This document shows positions 7,481 to 49,396 of a DNA stretch of 64,000 nt, in pieces (the stretch's first letter is position 1; each line of letters opens with the position of its first letter). The stretch lies in the NCBI RefSeq assembly GCF_030915505.1, contig NZ_CP133265.1, positions 1 through 64,000 on the forward strand. The letters are read 5' to 3'. Both the position numbers and the translations under genes were made by a program. The notes under the pieces were generated by a model that had not been told where the DNA came from, did not search any database, and saw only the letters and a program-made list of their open reading frames with translations. This stretch comes from Neobacillus sp. OS1-2. Lineage in GTDB: Bacteria; Bacillota; Bacilli; Bacillales; Cytobacillaceae.

Positions 7481-8743
7481 TTACATATGCATAATATCGA
7501 CCATATGATTACTGATGATCTCATCGTAATTTTCCCTTAATTCATCAAGTGAGATCTTTAATGTCCCAGAAAGCTTATATAAGAATTCTTGATCTTGTCT
7601 AAGCCAAGAAGAATGATTTCTTTTAAGAAAACGTTCCGCCTCGGAGAAGGCAGAAAACGTTTGCCCAATCTTCCCCCCATTATGGACAAGTTCATATTTT
7701 CCATCCCCTGCCGGTAAAATATACGAACTTTCCCCCAAATGGTTTTGATAGCTTGTTCCAAAGGCTGATTCTTTCACATTATATTCATTCCGATCGGCAT
7801 CCGGTTTAAGCGGGTTCTGTTCGAAAACGTTGACAATAAAGGTTTCAAATCCTTCTTTTGTTAACTCAGATCCGGAAGCTTTCGGATGCCCCCCACCACC
7901 ATATCTCTGAGCAAATTCAGCCACATTCACTTCATCATGGATCGTTCGGAAGCCCATTTTCTTTCCACTTACATTCAAAAGAACAATCATGTCCATATGA
8001 GGATAAATATTATTTAACGCATTGCCTAGCTCGGACAAATACTGCTCTGCATGGACAACACCGACACAATAATCGCCCACAAAGGTTTGCACAATCTGTC
8101 TGCTTTTCGAGTGGATATAACGATTAATTTTTTGCTCTTCAATATCAAGAATCATATTTTCTGTTTCCGTTAACTGAAACGAATCGGTATTTTCCTTTAA
8201 CCGCTTTAACATCTCTTCTTCAAACTGTTCTCTGTTCATTATGTAAAATAAATCGTTTAACCGCTTGGCCGTCACATTATTATTTTCATCCCATTCCCAG
8301 GTATCATATTGACGGACTAAATCAATGAATTCTTCAAGTGCATGATTTCGCTCGATCTTCCCATGCTCAATCAAATAATCATAAAACAATGAGGTCGCAC
8401 ATGTTTTTTTGCCATTATCATACTCTGGCATTACCCAGCCCCAGTCGTACTCATTAAAATGCATCGCCGTCACATGATGATCAATCATCTGAATATGATG
8501 GCCCCGCTGAAACCGTTCCTGCAGTTTTTTCTCAACCAACTCATTAACGGCTAAATCGGTAATATAAGTTTCTTCCTGGTTATTGGCCGGATGTTTAATA
8601 AACGACTCGACCCTCTGGTTTAAATTTCGATAGGAACAATAAAATACATTTGCTTTATCCCCAAAGGCTAGTTTAGCAATTAGCCCGCAGCCAAGGCCAT
8701 CTAAATCCATATCTGTAAAAAGTTTTACCATACCTGACACCAT
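7481..8743 (-). CDS. nrnB: NanoRNase / DHH-DHHA1 phosphodiesterase NrnB
   Basis: This enzyme degrades 2-5 nt RNAs to mononucleotides in the cytoplasm. At 420 aa it matches Bacillus NrnB (YngD, about 400 aa). The N-terminus carries the DxDxDG metal motif (DMDLDGLGCG, residues 11-20), the DHH triad is at 88-90 (MIDHHVTA), and the DHHA1 domain has the GGGGHPKASG substrate loop near 280-290. The likely start is either the ATG at 8743 or the in-frame ATG at 8731 giving MVKLFTDMD; family length favours the latter slightly. It stands alone with its own terminator. Confidence 0.85.
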   Translation of the reverse strand: MVSGMVKLFTDMDLDGLGCGLIAKLAFGDKANVFYCSYRNLNQRVESFIKHPANNQEETYITDLAVNELVEKKLQERFQRGHHIQMIDHHVTAMHFNEYDWGWVMPEYDNGKKTCATSLFYDYLIEHGKIERNHALEEFIDLVRQYDTWEWDENNNVTAKRLNDLFYIMNREQFEEEMLKRLKENTDSFQLTETENMILDIEEQKINRYIHSKSRQIVQTFVGDYCVGVVHAEQYLSELGNALNNIYPHMDMIVLLNVSGKKMGFRTIHDEVNVAEFAQRYGGGGHPKASGSELTKEGFETFIVNVFEQNPLKPDADRNEYNVKESAFGTSYQNHLGESSYILPAGDGKYELVHNGGKIGQTFSAFSEAERFLKRNHSSWLRQDQEFLYKLSGTLKISLDELRENYDEIISNHMVDIMHM

Positions 8744-10716: not shown

Positions 10717-10820
10717 TCATTCCCCCTCATTATTTAGACTTTATTTATACATTCATTGTACATAATTGACATGCATTTGGAAAGAATTGTTCGCCGGCTA
10801 TTTACTCAGTCATTCGACAA

Positions 10821-10855
10821 AGTAACAACTTGTGTGTTACTATTGAGTTGTTACT
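10821..10855. promoter_or_regulatory. Candidate BusR-type operator (perfect 9-bp inverted repeat)
   Basis: AGTAACAAC (10821-10829) and GTTGTTACT (10847-10855) are perfect inverted arms 17 bp apart, with an additional GTTAC half-site between them (10836-10840). The element lies 35-70 bp upstream of the OpuF ATPase start and just downstream of a plausible promoter (TTGGAA at 10777, TATTTA at 10799). BusR regulators are known to bind spaced inverted repeats upstream of glycine-betaine importer genes. Confidence 0.55.
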
Positions 10856-10889
10856 AATCAAACAAAAGTTATTACAAGGGGGAATGAAC

Positions 10890-12014
10890 TTGATAGAATT
10901 TAAAGATATTGTCAAAAAATATCGAACAAAATCCATTATTAATCCTTTTTCATTAAAAATCGATCCCGGCCAATTAGTTGTCTTTATTGGACCAAGTGGT
11001 TGTGGAAAAACAACATTGCTTAAAATGATCAATAAACTAATACAGCCGACATCGGGTAAAATTTTTGTGGATGGGACAGATATCTCCACAATGAATCCCA
11101 TTGAACTCCGCAGAAATATTGGTTACGTCATTCAAAATACTGGATTGTTTCCACATATGTCGATTAAAGAAAACTTGGAATTAATCCCCAAACTTAAGGG
11201 TGAAGATCCTGCCCTAATTGAGAAGAAAACAAATGATTTACTTGAAATGGTCGGCTTAGACCCTAAGGAATACTTACACAGATTTCCTAAAGAATTAAGC
11301 GGCGGACAGCAGCAAAGAGTAGGTGTAGCAAGAGCCTTCTCCACAGACTCCGATATTATCTTAATGGATGAACCCTTCAGTGCACTTGACCCTGTAACAA
11401 GAAGTTCACTTCAAGATGAATTATTTCAAATGCAAAAGGAATTAAATAAGACGATTATCTTTGTCACCCATGACATGGACGAAGCTATTAAAATAGCTGA
11501 TAAGATTTGTATATTAAAAGATGGCGATATTCTCCAATACGACACGCCAGAAAATATCCTCAAAAATCCTGCGAATGATTTTGTTGAAGGCTTTATTGGA
11601 AAAAGAAGGGTTTGGAATAATCCAGAACTGATGTTGGCGGAGGATATTATGATTCAACAGCCTATAAAAATAACCGCCATGCGTACTGTTTTACAAGCCA
11701 TTGAAATTATGAAAGACAATAAGGTTGATAGTTTAATGGTTACAGACAAACAGAATGTCCTAAAAGGACTTGTCACTTTAAAAAGTATCCAATTGCTCAA
11801 TCGAAACACTTCAATAGAAATGGTGATGGAGCACAATGTATTCTCTGTTTCACAGGATGCTAATTTAATTTCTGTGTTAGCAGCTATGAATGAGCACAAA
11901 ATTGGCTATCTTCCTGTTGTAAATAGTGCAAAGCAGTTAACAGGACTCATAACAAGGAGCAGCATTTTATCGGCTTTAAGTAGCCAATTAATTGACCTGG
12001 AGGTGGCGTTTTAA
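10890..12014 (+). CDS. opuFA: Compatible-solute ABC importer ATPase with CBS domains (OpuFA/OpuCA type)
   Basis: The ATP-hydrolysing subunit of an osmoprotectant (glycine betaine/choline-type) importer. It has Walker A GPSGCGKTT, signature LSGGQQQR, Walker B IILMDEP and H-loop THD in the first about 240 residues, then two tandem CBS domains to the C-terminus. In the OpuCA homologue the CBS pair binds c-di-AMP, which shuts import. I choose the TTG at 10890 because AAGGGGG is 7 nt upstream; the ATG at 10884 is too close to it. The stop codon overlaps the next gene's ATG (TAATG), so the two are translationally coupled. Confidence 0.88.
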   Translation: MIEFKDIVKKYRTKSIINPFSLKIDPGQLVVFIGPSGCGKTTLLKMINKLIQPTSGKIFVDGTDISTMNPIELRRNIGYVIQNTGLFPHMSIKENLELIPKLKGEDPALIEKKTNDLLEMVGLDPKEYLHRFPKELSGGQQQRVGVARAFSTDSDIILMDEPFSALDPVTRSSLQDELFQMQKELNKTIIFVTHDMDEAIKIADKICILKDGDILQYDTPENILKNPANDFVEGFIGKRRVWNNPELMLAEDIMIQQPIKITAMRTVLQAIEIMKDNKVDSLMVTDKQNVLKGLVTLKSIQLLNRNTSIEMVMEHNVFSVSQDANLISVLAAMNEHKIGYLPVVNSAKQLTGLITRSSILSALSSQLIDLEVAF

Positions 12015-13570
12015 TGAGTGGATTTTGGAACTATCTAACAGCAAATTATCAGCAAATCGTCAATTTACTGGGTGAACATTTATATTTAAGTATCGTTTCA
12101 GTATTAATTGCCATTATTATTGGAATCCCGTTAGGAATCTTAATTTCGAACGAGAAAAAGCTAGCCAAACCAATTATTGGGACGACAAACGTTATTCAAG
12201 CTGTACCAAGTCTGGCTTTACTTGGATTTCTAATTCCGTTTATTGGAATCGGCAGTGCACCGGCCATTGTAATGGTCGTTCTTTATTCTCTTCTCCCTAT
12301 TGTCAAGAACACCTATACCGGGTTGACGAATATTGACGGGGACATTCTGGAAGCCGCCAAAGGCATCGGTCTGACTAAGAGTCAAACCATGAGAAAGGTT
12401 CAGCTGCCGCTAGCCTTCCCGATGATTATGGCGGGTATCAGAATTTCAGCGGTAACAGCAGTTGGGTTGATGACAATTGCTGCATTCGTTGGAGCAGGTG
12501 GACTAGGTTACCTTGTTTTCTCAGGTGTACAAACCGTTGATAACCATATGATTTTAGCTGGAGCCATTCCGGCCTGTATCTTAGCACTCCTCATTGACTT
12601 TGTAGTCGGAAAACTTGAAGCCTCACTTTCTTATACAAGTAAACGAAGAACAGCCAAAAAGTCAGGAAAGAAAACAAAACGATGGATGATTGCTCTCGCC
12701 TCAATCATTATCGTTATCGCAGGTGGTTTCAAGGTATATTCCATCGCCAGCGCCGAAGAAAAAATTGTCATTGGCTCTAAAAACTTTAGTGAATCGATGA
12801 TATTAGGAAACATGCTGGCCGATTTAATTGAAAACAAAACAGATCTACCTGTAGAAAGAAAACTAAATCTTGGTGGTTCCCAGGTTGCTTTTGGCGCCCT
12901 TAAGAATGGCGACGTTGATATGTATGTAGAATATACCGGTACAGGCTTGGTTAATATTTTAAACCAACCGCCGGAAAGTAACCCTGATAAGGTATATGAT
13001 TATGTGCAAAAGGAATTTAAACAAAAATATGGGATTGAGTTATTAAAACCACTTGGATTTAATAATACCTATGCCCTGGCCGTTCGCCAGGACACAGCAG
13101 AAGAATATAGGTTAAATACGATCTCAGATTTGGCTAAAGTAAGTGGTAATTTAATTATGGGGCCGACGATTGAATTTCCCAACCGGGAAGATGGATTAAT
13201 CGGGCTTGAAAAAACCTATAATTTGGCTTTTAAAGATGTCAAAGCCGTCGATGGCGGCTTACGTTATACTGCATTGAAAAATCATAAAAGTGATGTCATC
13301 GATGCTTTCTCGACTGACGGGCTACTTGAAGAATTTCAATTGAAGGTCTTAAAGGATGATCAAAACTTTTTTCCTCCATATTATGCAGTGCCAGTCATAA
13401 AGGAAGAAACATTGAAAGAACATCCGGAACTGAAGAAGGCAATTAATTCCTTAGCTGGTAAGCTATCAGATGATAAAATGCGCCAGCTCAACTATAAAGT
13501 TGACAGTCTCAAAGAGTCACCAGCAAAGGTTGCAAAAGAATTTTTAGAAAAAGAAGGATTGCTGGATTAA
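12014..13570 (+). CDS. opuFB: Compatible-solute importer: permease fused to substrate-binding protein (OpuFB type)
   Basis: A 518-aa fusion. Residues 1 to about 215 are an OpuC/ProW-type permease with the EAA loop (EAAKGIGLTKSQTMRKVQLPLAFPMI). A short basic linker and a further membrane helix (about 228-247) follow, then an extracytoplasmic substrate-binding domain starting IVIGSKNFSESMILGNML and running to the end. This domain order is that of OpuF from Bacillus infantis and of BusAB/OpuABC. The fusion fixes the number of receptor domains at two per transporter. Coupled to the ATPase gene and followed by a strong terminator, it forms a two-gene operon. The ligand (glycine betaine versus other betaines) cannot be read by eye. 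Confidence 0.88.
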   Translation: MSGFWNYLTANYQQIVNLLGEHLYLSIVSVLIAIIIGIPLGILISNEKKLAKPIIGTTNVIQAVPSLALLGFLIPFIGIGSAPAIVMVVLYSLLPIVKNTYTGLTNIDGDILEAAKGIGLTKSQTMRKVQLPLAFPMIMAGIRISAVTAVGLMTIAAFVGAGGLGYLVFSGVQTVDNHMILAGAIPACILALLIDFVVGKLEASLSYTSKRRTAKKSGKKTKRWMIALASIIIVIAGGFKVYSIASAEEKIVIGSKNFSESMILGNMLADLIENKTDLPVERKLNLGGSQVAFGALKNGDVDMYVEYTGTGLVNILNQPPESNPDKVYDYVQKEFKQKYGIELLKPLGFNNTYALAVRQDTAEEYRLNTISDLAKVSGNLIMGPTIEFPNREDGLIGLEKTYNLAFKDVKAVDGGLRYTALKNHKSDVIDAFSTDGLLEEFQLKVLKDDQNFFPPYYAVPVIKEETLKEHPELKKAINSLAGKLSDDKMRQLNYKVDSLKESPAKVAKEFLEKEGLLD

Positions 13571-13590
13571 ATTAATAGTAATAGTGAAGA

Positions 13591-13619
13591 AAGCCGGTGT
13601 GATAAACCGGCTTTTTTCT
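13591..13619 (+). terminator. Terminator of the opuF operon
   Basis: AAGCCGGT pairs with ACCGGCTT and is followed by TTTTCTTTT. Confidence 0.9.
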
Positions 13620-13627
13620 TTTGCATC

Positions 13628-14245
13628 CTAATCCTCTAAAAAATGAAGGACTCTATCATATGTTTTATCATCCCCAATAACTAACAATACATCGCCTTCT
13701 AGGATTAATGCATAGGGCCCCGGTGAGATAATTAACTCACCTTTCCGCTTCATGCCAATTACAGTTCCACCAGTATTTTGCCAGAATTTCATTTCTGAAA
13801 TGGTTTTTCCAATATGAATACAGCCAGGAAATATTTCCACCTCAATCGGAGCTAACGGATTGGTATGGCGAAGCTTGCCAGAGTAGTCCATGATCTTTCT
13901 TAACGTGTCAAAAAGCTGATCATCGAGATTGGCTCTTTCAGAAATGAGTGTGGCCATCTGTTTCTCCAGATCCTTTATACTCGCCAGGTTGGAAAAACGG
14001 TGAATATACTTATACGCATTTTCCCGCGAAGAAATCACAATCCCGCTGCCCTTTGTGGAATGCACAATCTCCACATCTTCCAAAATCTTTATCGCTCTTC
14101 TGACAGTTTCGGGGGAAACCTTGTATTCACTTGCCAAGGTTGATCTGCCATGAATTTTTTCCCCCACTTTAAACTTACCATCGTATATTCTATTCGCCAA
14201 ATCGATGGCAATTCGCTCATATGTTGGTATTTGCGCCTTTTGCAT
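13628..14245 (-). CDS. GntR-type HTH + RCK_C regulator (BusR-like)
   Basis: A 205-aa regulator. The N-terminal GntR winged HTH (residues 1-75, with GRSTLASEYKVSPETVRRAIKIL and TKGSGIVI) is followed by a helical linker (90-125) and a C-terminal TrkA_C/RCK_C domain (about 128-205, PLAPIEVEIFPGCIHIGKTI... GDVLLVIGD). This is the architecture of lactococcal and streptococcal BusR, which represses the betaine importer BusAB when RCK_C binds c-di-AMP. It lies convergently right behind opuFAB, and GGTGGAGG precedes the ATG. By family and position I infer osmotic control of opuF. A GntR/RCK_C regulator of a K+ or Na+ transporter is the alternative. Confidence 0.8.
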   Translation of the reverse strand: MQKAQIPTYERIAIDLANRIYDGKFKVGEKIHGRSTLASEYKVSPETVRRAIKILEDVEIVHSTKGSGIVISSRENAYKYIHRFSNLASIKDLEKQMATLISERANLDDQLFDTLRKIMDYSGKLRHTNPLAPIEVEIFPGCIHIGKTISEMKFWQNTGGTVIGMKRKGELIISPGPYALILEGDVLLVIGDDKTYDRVLHFLED

Positions 14246-14402
14246 TGAAATCCTCCACCAATATACTTATAAATATGGATGCCAACTATCATTTCACTAT
14301 ACCTTTTTTGATGCCAGTTTGCGAGCACAATGGCTAAATACATTTATATTTGTGCTGGTTTGGGCATAATTATTAATAGTCCTTCGATATGAGGTGAGCA
14401 CT

Positions 14403-14969
14403 GTGAAACGGAAAGTTATTATCATTTTAAGTATTTTGTTTATCATTTTCATGACTGCCTTATTTATTTATTATTTAGTCAAAGGTGATGCCTCTAGATG
14501 GCAGGTTGCGCTCGGCGGTATCTTAGTTAGCGCATTACCGCTTTGCTTATTAAGGATGAAACAAAATCCATTTAACATTCCCATCATCGTCGGTTATTAT
14601 CTTTTTTTATTTGGATCGTTATATCTAGGTTCAATCGCAAGCTTTTACCTGCATTACACATGGTGGGATTCTTCCGTTCACTTTTACAAAGGAATGCTCA
14701 TTGGTTTTGTTGGTATATCCCTTTACAAACGATTGATCCCTGAAAAAGTCCGCCAAGATGTCTCATCAGGAATCCTCTTTCTTTTCGTGTTCTCACTTGC
14801 CGTTTTAGCCGGTGTACTATGGGAAATTTATGAGTTTGTTGGCGATTTGACCTTTACACACACGATGCAGCGTGGTGGAAATACCGATACCATGTATGAT
14901 CTACTTTGCGGTGTAGCCGGCGGCCTCATCGTAGCTTTTTACTCATTAGTAAGAAAAAAGACAGTGTAA
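14403..14969 (+). CDS. Membrane protein, first of two tandem paralogs (DUF2238/YjdF-like)
   Basis: A 188-aa integral membrane protein with five hydrophobic segments. Conserved polar residues are shared with the next gene: WWDSSVHFYKGMLIGFVGISLY and WEIYEFVGD...GGNTDTMYDL, a D-x3-H / E-x2-E / N-x-D-T pattern resembling DUF2238 membrane proteins. These could form an intramembrane metal or active site, but no function is established. The start at GTG 14403 has GAGGTGAG upstream; the longer frame from 14394 lacks one. Only a 7-nt gap plus leader separates it from the paralog, so they form an operon. Confidence 0.7.
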   Translation: MKRKVIIILSILFIIFMTALFIYYLVKGDASRWQVALGGILVSALPLCLLRMKQNPFNIPIIVGYYLFLFGSLYLGSIASFYLHYTWWDSSVHFYKGMLIGFVGISLYKRLIPEKVRQDVSSGILFLFVFSLAVLAGVLWEIYEFVGDLTFTHTMQRGGNTDTMYDLLCGVAGGLIVAFYSLVRKKTV

Positions 14970-14985
14970 AGTTGAGGTGGCATCA

Positions 14986-15564
14986 ATGAATCGGAAACTC
15001 GTTATTATTTTTAGTGCCTTATATGTTATTTTCATGGCCATTTTAGCAGTCTATTACTTTAAAAATGGGGTAACCTTTAAATCAACTGTAGCCATTGGAG
15101 GAATTATCTGTGGCGCCATCCCCCTGCTTTTAGCCCTTTTTACAAAACTTCAGTTCAATTTACCGATTGTCATTTCCTATTTAATCTTCTTAATTGGCTC
15201 ACAGTATTTCGGGTCGATCCGAGGATGGTATGGACTCGGTTGGTGGGACACATTTATGCATTTAGTCAGCGGTGCCATTCTTGCTTTTTCGGGCATTGCT
15301 TTATATGAAAGATTGATCCACCGAAATGCTGGTGATGAAATTTCTCCATGGTTTGTTTTCTTATTTACTCTCTCCTTCGCAGCACTTGGCGGTGTGATTT
15401 GGGAGATTTATGAATTTAGCTGCGACCAATTTTTAGGGATGACTTTACAAGGCGGAGGTAATAAGGACACAATGACTGATTTAGTGGCCGATACCGTGGG
15501 CGGACTCGTGATTGCCGTATGGGCAGGAATTCGAACAAAGATAAAATTGAATAAATCAAACTAA
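14986..15564 (+). CDS. Membrane protein, second of two tandem paralogs (DUF2238/YjdF-like)
   Basis: A 192-aa paralog of the preceding protein, with the same hydrophobic profile and the same motifs (WWDTFMHLVSGAILAFSGIALYERLI; WEIYEFSCDQ...GGNKDTMTDL). The tandem arrangement points to local duplication followed by divergence. The ATG at 14986 has GAGGTGG 7 nt upstream. The gene ends in a strong terminator shared with the convergent aspartokinase gene. No function is assigned. One possibility is heterodimer formation between the two. Confidence 0.7.
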   Translation: MNRKLVIIFSALYVIFMAILAVYYFKNGVTFKSTVAIGGIICGAIPLLLALFTKLQFNLPIVISYLIFLIGSQYFGSIRGWYGLGWWDTFMHLVSGAILAFSGIALYERLIHRNAGDEISPWFVFLFTLSFAALGGVIWEIYEFSCDQFLGMTLQGGGNKDTMTDLVADTVGGLVIAVWAGIRTKIKLNKSN

Positions 15565-47220: not shown

Positions 47221-49396
47221 ATAAAGTAGGGAAACCTCTTTCGAGGCTTCCCCCTTATCAAACCGTACGTGCCCTATTAAGGCATACGGCTTACCAATGT
47301 GTTACAAATGGTCAATACGTTGCCAATCTTTGAGCATATTTCATTTTGCGGACACGGTCAGGAGTATAATACTCTTGACCCTTTTCTTTTGCCTTTAGGA
47401 TTCGTCTTTCCTGTTCTTTCTTTTGCTTTTCTTTCATTCGAAGAATGTAACTTTCTAGAGAAAAGCCATATATCTTGTGGTAGTAATACCAGTATGAAGG
47501 GATAAGTCCAATAATAGCAAAGAACTCATTATTCCATTTTGTTTTCATCGCATGACCTTTTCTTTGGCTAGGGTGTTTGTGAATCATGGCTACTCTTAAC
47601 CTTTGTCGAATATAGCCATCTATCGCAAGTAGTTCTTTCCCAAATGCTTTAAAGAAGCATGAACTGTTAAATCCGTGTTCTTCATTTGCCTTAATTGCTT
47701 TATAAATATTGAGAAAATAGTTTACTTTTCCTCGAATCACTGGGTTAACATACTCAATCCACTTTTCCTTACTCAGAGTGAGTGTTTTCTTCGTCTTGAC
47801 TTTGATTTTCTGGCGAAAATCATTCCAAGTTGATTCTTTCGGTTTAGCTATATAGTATGGCTTACCATCCTTCTTGCGTTTTCTCCAGTGTTCGAAAGTG
47901 AATCCCATAAAGTCAAAGTCATCATCATCGAAGTTTACAAATTTTGTTTTCTCCGTTGCAAGTTCCAACCCAAGTTCGGCTAATTTCCTTTTCGTAATAT
48001 CTGCCGCTCTCTTTATGTCTTCTTTGGTTTTTGCGAATAACAAAAAGTCATCGGCGAATCTTACAAAACGAATATTGTTTTCAGCCCAGATCCAATCAAG
48101 TTCATTTAAATATACGTTCGCTAGTAACGGAGAAATAACCCCTCCTTGCGGAGTGCCGGTATCTGTTGAGTGAAATTTACCTTCTTCCATATAACCAGCT
48201 TTTAGCCACAACCAAATCATATCTAACACTGTACCATCTGCGATGTATTTATTTAATACTCTCATCAGCTTCTTATGTGGGATATTATCGAAAAAGCCTT
48301 TAATATCTGCATCGAAGATGTAATTATATCCTTGTTCGATATTCGCCATGATTATTTGCAGGACACGTTCTGCACCAACATTTGGTCTGTATCCACATGA
48401 CCATTTGTGAAAGATATCCCTTTCGAATTTCGGCTGAAGTACATTTACTATTGCCTGTTGGACAATTCTATCTTCAATATTCGGAATGCCTAAGGGTCGC
48501 TTTTTGCCATTTTTCTTAGGAATATAATGTCTTCTTACTGGTGACGGCTTATACTCTTTATTTCTCAGTCTCTGTAGAAGCGAGTCCAGATTTTCATCTA
48601 AGTGATATCTATAGCTGTCAATTGTTTCGCCATCAATACCACCTGACCCGTTGTTGGCTTCTACCTTTTCCCAAGCAGCTTTTAGCCTTCTGTCGAAAAG
48701 TATTTGTCCATAAATACTATGCCATTTGAATTTTAACGTATGATTCATTACATATTCCGCACCCTTCATTGTGTACATTCAGTTCGTTTATACCGAGGTA
48801 TCGTTTTCTGTTAACATTACACATCTTTACAGATGTGGAGCCACAAGGTCGTTCCCCTTCCGTTCATGCATGGTTTAGTCCATACACTACTTCCGTACTA
48901 TGAGAACGTCTGACTTCTCCATTCACATCTAGCATTTCGGATTACCCTTATAGGTAGATGTCCCTTTGGGTTGGAATGGAGACCTCACGGGGTCATCGCA
49001 CCTTCCTTCTAAACATACCCAGCACCATCACTTGATAAATTGCCTCTATCCGGCTGATTCATTGGTATAGAGACCACTAATGTTATAGTGGGCTTCCCAT
49101 TATATTCGCATAGTCGCCAACTTACCCTGCCGCCGTGCTTCACACTTATTGCATTTGGGTCTGCTTATCCGACTGCGGGTCTCTCGATTGTCCGCATCTC
49201 CTTCAGACATCACCTCACGGTGATGCCCTAGATTAGTCTTCACTAGTTGTATCAGCACTCTAGTGGAAGGATTTTCACCTTCGGGAAAACGAGTCTTCTA
49301 GGATTCGGGAGCCGTGTTTATCGCAATAACGTACTCCAACCTTTAACAACTCATTCAGTGCAGTTCTACTGCACAAGGTACGACTGCCTGTCGCAC
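47221..49396 (-). mobile_element. Group II intron, copy 2 (full length)
   Basis: A second copy, identical as far as I can read to 2-2177 and in the same orientation (constant offset 47219). The 5' end GTGCGAC is at 49396-49390 and the 3' end TTTAT at 47225-47221, followed by the exon TTTTTGAAAAA. It is inserted immediately behind the terminator of the PAS-kinase gene (49402-49426); the last eight bases before the intron (TTTTATTT) are the same as at copy 1. Its 3' end is only 110 bp from the fdhA start codon, so it lies between a terminator and a gene without breaking either. Absence of divergence implies recent movement or gene conversion. Confidence 0.93.
47312..48778 (-). CDS. ltrA: Group II intron reverse transcriptase/maturase, copy 2
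   Basis: The same 488-aa protein as the copy at 93-1559, with no amino-acid difference. Intact RT blocks (TGTPQGGVISPLLAN, FADD) and no HNH domain. Either copy could splice and mobilise both introns in trans. Transcription is expected to come through leaky read-through of the kinase terminator or from a promoter inside the ribozyme; none is evident. Confidence 0.95.
   Translation of the reverse strand: MYTMKGAEYVMNHTLKFKWHSIYGQILFDRRLKAAWEKVEANNGSGGIDGETIDSYRYHLDENLDSLLQRLRNKEYKPSPVRRHYIPKKNGKKRPLGIPNIEDRIVQQAIVNVLQPKFERDIFHKWSCGYRPNVGAERVLQIIMANIEQGYNYIFDADIKGFFDNIPHKKLMRVLNKYIADGTVLDMIWLWLKAGYMEEGKFHSTDTGTPQGGVISPLLANVYLNELDWIWAENNIRFVRFADDFLLFAKTKEDIKRAADITKRKLAELGLELATEKTKFVNFDDDDFDFMGFTFEHWRKRKKDGKPYYIAKPKESTWNDFRQKIKVKTKKTLTLSKEKWIEYVNPVIRGKVNYFLNIYKAIKANEEHGFNSSCFFKAFGKELLAIDGYIRQRLRVAMIHKHPSQRKGHAMKTKWNNEFFAIIGLIPSYWYYYHKIYGFSLESYILRMKEKQKKEQERRILKAKEKGQEYYTPDRVRKMKYAQRLATY

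Follow-up and report, generated by a model that had tools for sequence, protein, structure and literature searches.

The opuF-busR locus

The stretch analysed here, hereafter the window, comprises positions 1 to 64,000 of contig NZ_CP133265.1 of Neobacillus sp. OS1-2, and the subject of this analysis is a two-gene importer operon within it, opuFA-opuFBC, together with the gene for a BusR-like regulator that lies convergently behind it and an inverted repeat in front of it (Table 1). The reading frame of opuFA runs into the start codon of opuFBC, which encodes a single protein of 518 amino acids. A first-pass annotation of the window had proposed a CBS-domain ATPase, a permease fused to an OpuAC receptor domain, and a regulator joining GntR to RCK_C (TrkA_C), with the regulator placed convergently behind the operon; domain profile matches bear out all three architectures, and the regulator gene does lie there, on the minus strand.

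The repeat AGTAACAAC-N17-GTTGTTACT is exact at 10821–10855, 34 nt upstream of opuFA, and thus the perfect inverted repeat claimed for the importer's 5′ region is real. When up to three mismatches are allowed, three matches fall in the window, against 0.01 expected from shuffled sequence. Within the 4.73-Mb genome, this repeat is the sole exact match; the other two matches (two and three mismatches) are also in the window, one of them being a terminator-like hairpin.

Alignment of 53 promoters (52 named loci plus the window) gives a conserved core, CAACAACTT-N13-AAGTTGTTG, centred on TGTTAnnAT, with T(C/T)GACA 18 nt 5′ of TAnnAT; the core lies 22–91 nt from the start codon, and the outer AGT/ACT of the window repeat is not generally conserved. 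Hence, the operator arms flank an extended −10 box, and a bound repressor would block the polymerase there. Related arms occupy the same position, likewise over an extended −10 promoter, at loci where BusR is linked to the betaine importer BusA. The stretch GTTACT at 10836–10841 was considered as a third arm and rejected, since it corresponds to TGTTAnnAT in relatives and is best read as the extended −10 element. Riboswitch control was also rejected: Rfam searches at gathering thresholds found group II introns in the window but no riboswitch for cyclic diadenosine monophosphate (c-di-AMP).

Table 1. Features of the opuF-busR locus, numbered by position in the window.
Feature	Position	Strand	Basis
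−35-like element TCGACA of the opuF promoter	10814..10819	+	T(C/T)GACA commonest form in the 53 aligned promoters
Left operator arm AGTAACAAC	10821..10829	+	Exact match; core AACAAC kept in relatives
Extended −10 element TG-T-TACTAT, between the operator arms	10835..10843	+	TGTTAnnAT near-invariant in the 53 aligned promoters; 18-nt spacer from the −35 element
Right operator arm GTTGTTACT	10847..10855	+	Exact match; core GTTGTT kept
Ribosome-binding site AAGGGGG, 7 nt 5′ of the opuFA TTG	10876..10882	+	Sequence
opuFA: ATP-binding cassette (ABC) ATPase with two CBS domains, OpuCA type	10890..12014	+	PF00005, PF00571; proV TIGR01186 above cut-off; TTG start as read from the sequence
opuFBC: permease fused to quaternary-amine receptor domain (OpuAC)	12014..13570	+	PF00528, PF04069; PDB matches of the receptor domain
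Probable terminator: hairpin with T tract between the convergent genes	13590..13619		Read by eye
busR-like gene: GntR + RCK_C (TrkA_C) regulator	13628..14245	−	PF00392, PF02080; phmmer to 7wjg (2.1e-45) and 7b5t (2.7e-37)

Co-occurrence of regulator, importer and operator

The search of other Bacillaceae that the first-pass annotation had proposed finds pairing and motif recurring together, in 73 of 73 genomes that carry both genes and at each of the 54 named loci where the opuFA 5′ end could be read. The survey covered 193 genomes of the family, with BusR called at E < 1e-79 and close OpuFBC at E < 1e-197. A BusR-like gene is present in 77 genomes and close OpuF in 73; none has close OpuF alone. 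One genome (G067) was counted as lacking BusR, its BusR-like stretches lying only in two overlapping frames with a stop. Outside the family, BusR is rare: 5 of 299 genomes in an even sample of the order match at 1e-25, and two of these belong to the family.

As a survey pattern, the 16-base palindrome alone (one mismatch) was rejected; it matches 102 of the 193 genomes, and its reversed control often matches too. The palindrome is thus a poor discriminator, and a 23-base operator/promoter pattern, with up to three mismatches, was therefore used. This matches 77 genomes: every genome with both genes, plus 4 of the other 120 (G031, G081, G145, and G182), each at exactly three mismatches and with neither gene. 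Of the 16 genomes that the reversed control pattern matches, 7 belong to the 73. In each of the 73, one operator lies 1145–1277 nt before opuFBC, that is, just before opuFA. The position test took 75 sites, leaving out the four genomes with neither gene, five further three-mismatch matches elsewhere in BusR genomes that look like chance (two in G103, one each in G105, G123, and G144), second tandem opuF sites (G121 and G131), and opposite-strand readings (G027 and G191). Among the matches listed, 17 OpuF paralogues (43%–46% identity, from 15 BusR genomes) adjoin no listed operator. In G191, busR and opuF sit on separate contigs; that they are unlinked was rejected, since each gene's 3′ end is no more than about 360 nt from the end of its contig and the split is probably a contig break. 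G191 was left out as evidence on linkage; G102 is alike.

The named loci number 59. An opuFA match was required from residue 1 at 68% identity, and none was found in the fetched DNA of six: opuFA is present only in part in L035, L066 is cut off by a contig end, no opuF is seen in L078 and L080, L081 has an opuFA remnant, and L079, checked afterwards, carries the operator and is counted among the 54. In 52 of the 54, the N17 operator has 0–2 mismatches in its 12 core bases and lies within 160 nt, the other two being L079 and L086. The latter was considered as a locus without an operator within that distance and rejected as such; its operator is at −181, with one core mismatch. Altered gene order leaves the operator in place: it is kept where opuF is 1.8 kb from busR (L084), where the two genes are divergent (L089, two core mismatches), and where opuF is about 6 kb away (G101, two mismatches).

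The regulator and its ligand pocket

The regulator has about 205 residues, with a GntR winged helix-turn-helix, RCK_C, and, between them, a putative coiled-coil linker without insertion or deletion relative to BusR of S. agalactiae. Its best PDB matches extend over nearly the whole length; on the strength of agreeing residue numbers, 7b5t is equated here with the S. agalactiae BusR described in PMC8517857. The protein is 100% identical in Bacillus sp. MM2020_4 (L034) and 98% identical in Neobacillus bataviensis (L035). A tree of 47 proteins divides the BusRs, with 100/99 support, into two clades: one is BusA-linked and includes S. agalactiae BusR, and the other includes the window protein. In the latter, the neighbours in families f1, f19, and f26 are OpuCA-type ATPases (the presence of CBS domains was confirmed in the window, L161, and L155), while other members adjoin other genes. 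Details within this clade are unsure because of two long branches (L155 and L168); the tree did not include L163.

The published S. agalactiae pocket consists of I153, G154, N157, V158, H160, A164, T165, I166, G180, and P181 (PMC8517857), and the window protein has I153, S154, K157, F158, W159, Q160, G164, T165, V166, G180, and P181. Across 60 rows (the window and the 59 named loci), Y13, W159, T165, G180, and P181 are invariant; at position 182, which with Tyr13, Trp159, and Pro181 makes up the autoinhibition residues, there are 59 Tyr and one Phe. The first-pass annotation had made c-di-AMP contacts in RCK_C a point on which its reading could fall; upon alignment, they are kept only in part: the hydrophobic, small-residue, and backbone positions prove conservative, and the polar rim is changed.

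Operator spacing and the molecular ruler

The experimentally defined operator of S. agalactiae BusR is GAC-N22-GTC, found at four sites (PMC8517857). Sites beside BusA-linked BusR genes are of the AAGTGAC-N22-GTCACTT type (seven loci) or, in f18, of the AGTAACAAC-N16-GTTGTTACT type, which likewise leaves 22 bp between the outer arms. In the 54 named loci, the arms are related but are spaced as AAC-N23-GTT. The 23-bp spacing therefore lessens identity with the S. agalactiae type, without lowering the claim that the system works in a BusR-like manner. Spacing was rejected as a clean marker of clade: N17 occurs in f1 and also in three f19 loci, and N16 in L155 (f26, a long branch), L163 (f37), and L165 (f29).

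The operator is thus one bp longer even though the alignment shows no linker indel, and the extra base pair may reflect either tolerance by the protein or a reading of shifted bases. A bolder and rather doubtful extension is that a second BusR subfamily (Bacillaceae and f19) reads operators one bp longer, its altered rim (Lys157/Gln160) answering a different ligand or c-di-AMP with shifted affinity; if so, the coil could not be the sole determinant of the ruler, since the longer operator comes without a linker indel. The series GAC-N22, AAC-N22, and AAC-N23, all with indel-free linkers, is in any case a ready natural test of the published molecular-ruler model.

The importer and its CBS domains

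The importer has the architecture of OpuF, a receptor fused to the transmembrane domain together with an OpuFA ATPase. The CBS region of opuFA has as its best PDB match 5ks7, OpuCA, described as the c-di-AMP complex of a Listeria protein (PMC7288161). The OpuCA contacts V260, V280, T282, Y342, I355, R358, and A359 map to I, V, S, Y, L, R, and S in opuFA and are thus mostly kept or conservative; a further contact, listed as I357 in a review (PMC7288161), counts as Thr in the 5ks7 chain and is Thr in opuFA too. The annotation's suggestion of double control, of transcription and of activity, is accordingly plausible. It is not new in kind: in lactic acid bacteria, c-di-AMP is already known to act on BusA at both levels (PMC8517857 and PMC10243994), and such control is known for OpuC.

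Sites beyond OpuF and neighbouring genes

Operators of this type also occur away from opuF. In two genomes of genus g8, the operator precedes an amino-acid-type ABC operon (SBP_bac_3), as a perfect AGTAACAAC-N17-GTTGTTACT in G022 and with two core mismatches in G024; the sites are at 2812–2840 in L170 and 2577–2605 in L171 and hint at a mode of regulon growth. The other 10 matched places gave no convincing operator, with one weak two-mismatch match at −332 in L198. In f37 and f29, BusR precedes a DapB-like gene (domains confirmed for L165), and a related N16 repeat of the AACTAACAAC-N16-GTTGTTAGTT type lies between them, at about 2165–2210 in L163 and 2160–2205 in L165. In L174 and L175, BusR is kept without close OpuF, and the genes upstream of it encode an AbgT-family transporter and a calcium/sodium antiporter (only L174 was scanned for these families); no operator was found at these two loci.

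Beside the regulator gene, 14394–15564 encodes two adjacent membrane-like proteins (191 and 195 residues), paralogous by look and without a Pfam or NCBIfam match at 0.001; similar proteins adjoin busR in L177, and one such in L176. A DHH-type phosphoesterase-like protein (sub-threshold DHHA1 and RecJ matches) is encoded near the opuF locus, at 7481–8743 on the minus strand, and in L178 a protein that resembles it by eye is encoded upstream of opuF. Degradation of c-di-AMP is known for some DHH proteins (PMC8517857). Elsewhere in the window, two minus-strand copies of a group II intron lie about 47 kb apart (2–75 with 1778–2005; 47221–47294 with 48997–49224), their Rfam scores identical.

Proposed circuit and alternative explanations

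The interpretation put forward in the first-pass annotation is well supported: the BusR-family repressor probably controls the opuFA-opuFBC compatible-solute importer through the operator at 10821–10855 and c-di-AMP. The annotation did not anticipate the 23-bp spacing, the placement of the regulator in its own BusR clade or the absence of the EgtU (ergothioneine) markers. Gene content, operator, promoter position, fixed spacing, and the complete association with the gene pair are read directly from the sequence, and binding, repression, the c-di-AMP ligand, the CBS effect, and the substrate are what we infer. In the proposed mechanism, a BusR tetramer would bind both arms flanking the extended −10 element and exclude RNA polymerase. 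As in Streptococcus BusR, c-di-AMP lodged between a pair of RCK_C domains would most likely release the DNA-binding domains; uptake would thereby be shut at high turgor and high c-di-AMP, and an osmotic upshift would open it. A second, activity-level brake operated by the same messenger is probably provided by the CBS domains of the ATPase.

Several observations weigh against this picture. The genomes are related, and the counts are not independent events; much of the association could be one inherited locus, and shared ancestry inflates any significance value, so the Fisher values carry no weight here. BusR occurs without close OpuF and without a promoter-type operator in G015, G092, G096, and G133, and hence it has another role there or none; the looser palindrome alone gives 0–2 single-mismatch matches in these genomes, chance-like and lacking the TGTTA centre. 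A second close copy of opuF in G024 has no operator. Five stretches upstream of busR were read and contain no copy of the operator, so autoregulation is not visible. Among published importers, OpuF genes of B. methanolicus, unplaced relative to the clade of the window, were not salt-induced and gave no osmoprotection (PMC8060640).

The changed pocket rim bears on the effector. Position 157 and His160, which contact the ribose 2′-OH and the phosphate in S. agalactiae BusR, are here mostly Lys and Gln (position 157 is K in 54 rows, N in 3, and M in 3; Q160 in all 60), and A164 is Gly in 59; moreover, DNA binding by L. lactis BusR responds to ionic strength in vitro, according to a review (PMC10243994). 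The same repressor and operator could thus answer ionic strength alone or another ligand fitting Lys157 and Gln160. This is judged unlikely: Gln160 is also found in BusA-linked BusRs beside GAC-N22-GTC sites (L143 and L145–L149), position 157 varies among K, N, and M within the clade while the hydrophobic pocket, W159, and Y13 are kept, and the genome contains two above-cut-off matches to diadenylate cyclase. That the repeat belongs instead to another regulator, for instance a MarR repressor of the GbsR/OpuAR type, with busR a passive neighbour, is the least probable of the alternatives. In Bacillus infantis, the opuA cluster has been reported to have a repressor of the GbsR family, OpuAR (PMC6207618), and the four genomes with BusR but no operator would fit; against it, every operator-bearing genome with close OpuF has BusR, and the arms match repeats beside distant BusR genes, including those of the experimentally defined GAC-N22-GTC type.

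The substrate allows a further alternative, in which the importer is the ergothioneine transporter EgtU and the circuit would consequently control the uptake of an antioxidant rather than an osmolyte. OpuF of B. infantis, of the same architecture, has been reclassified as EgtU (PMC9732360), and EgtUC is a significant match to the receptor domain (1.8e-63). The best PDB matches of that domain, however, are engineered acetylcholine/nicotine sensor proteins (1.5e-91), and the three EgtU markers, placed by motif and not by direct alignment to EgtUC, are absent: Phe (GSKNF) stands at the invariant Gly244, Tyr (YTGT) at Phe293, and Phe (FNNTY) at Tyr337. On these two grounds, a quaternary amine appears the likelier import substrate, and transport of ergothioneine is improbable, if slightly less so than control by another regulator.

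Comparison with known systems

The c-di-AMP-responsive BusR circuit thus favoured for OpuF is closest to that of S. agalactiae and L. lactis, in which BusR (GntR + RCK_C) controls the betaine importer BusA, whose receptor is fused to the membrane domain (PMC8517857 and PMC10243994). Both systems pair such a regulator with a receptor-membrane fusion importer, both place a bipartite inverted repeat over the promoter, and Y13 and W159 are kept. In contrast to BusR-BusA, the window regulator belongs to the separate BusR clade; its gene is convergent, whereas BusA-linked busR lies ahead of the ATPase gene in the same orientation; the arms are AAC-N23-GTT instead of GAC-N22-GTC; the rim carries N157K and H160Q; and the partner is OpuF instead of BusA.

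The importer itself resembles OpuF of B. infantis and B. panaciterrae in joining an ATPase to a permease-receptor fusion (PMC8060640), although B. infantis OpuF is classed as EgtU (PMC9732360) and the window receptor lacks the three EgtU markers; no regulator of these OpuF systems was found in the excerpted literature. A search of an open-access library found no paper treating BusR and OpuF together, and BusR is not mentioned in any of the 12 papers listed by a broader search, which does not prove absence in print. Listeria OpuC is similar in its ATPase, OpuCA, which has CBS domains and c-di-AMP contacts that are mostly kept or conservative in opuFA. Listeria OpuC has a separate receptor protein, unlike the fusion seen in the window. 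The locus thus appears to show a familiar scheme in new surroundings: in Bacillaceae, an OpuF importer would be repressed by a BusR-type protein through an operator one bp longer. If this is true, c-di-AMP-type transcriptional control of osmolyte import would reach another importer, OpuF, and would be shared by many soil Bacillaceae.

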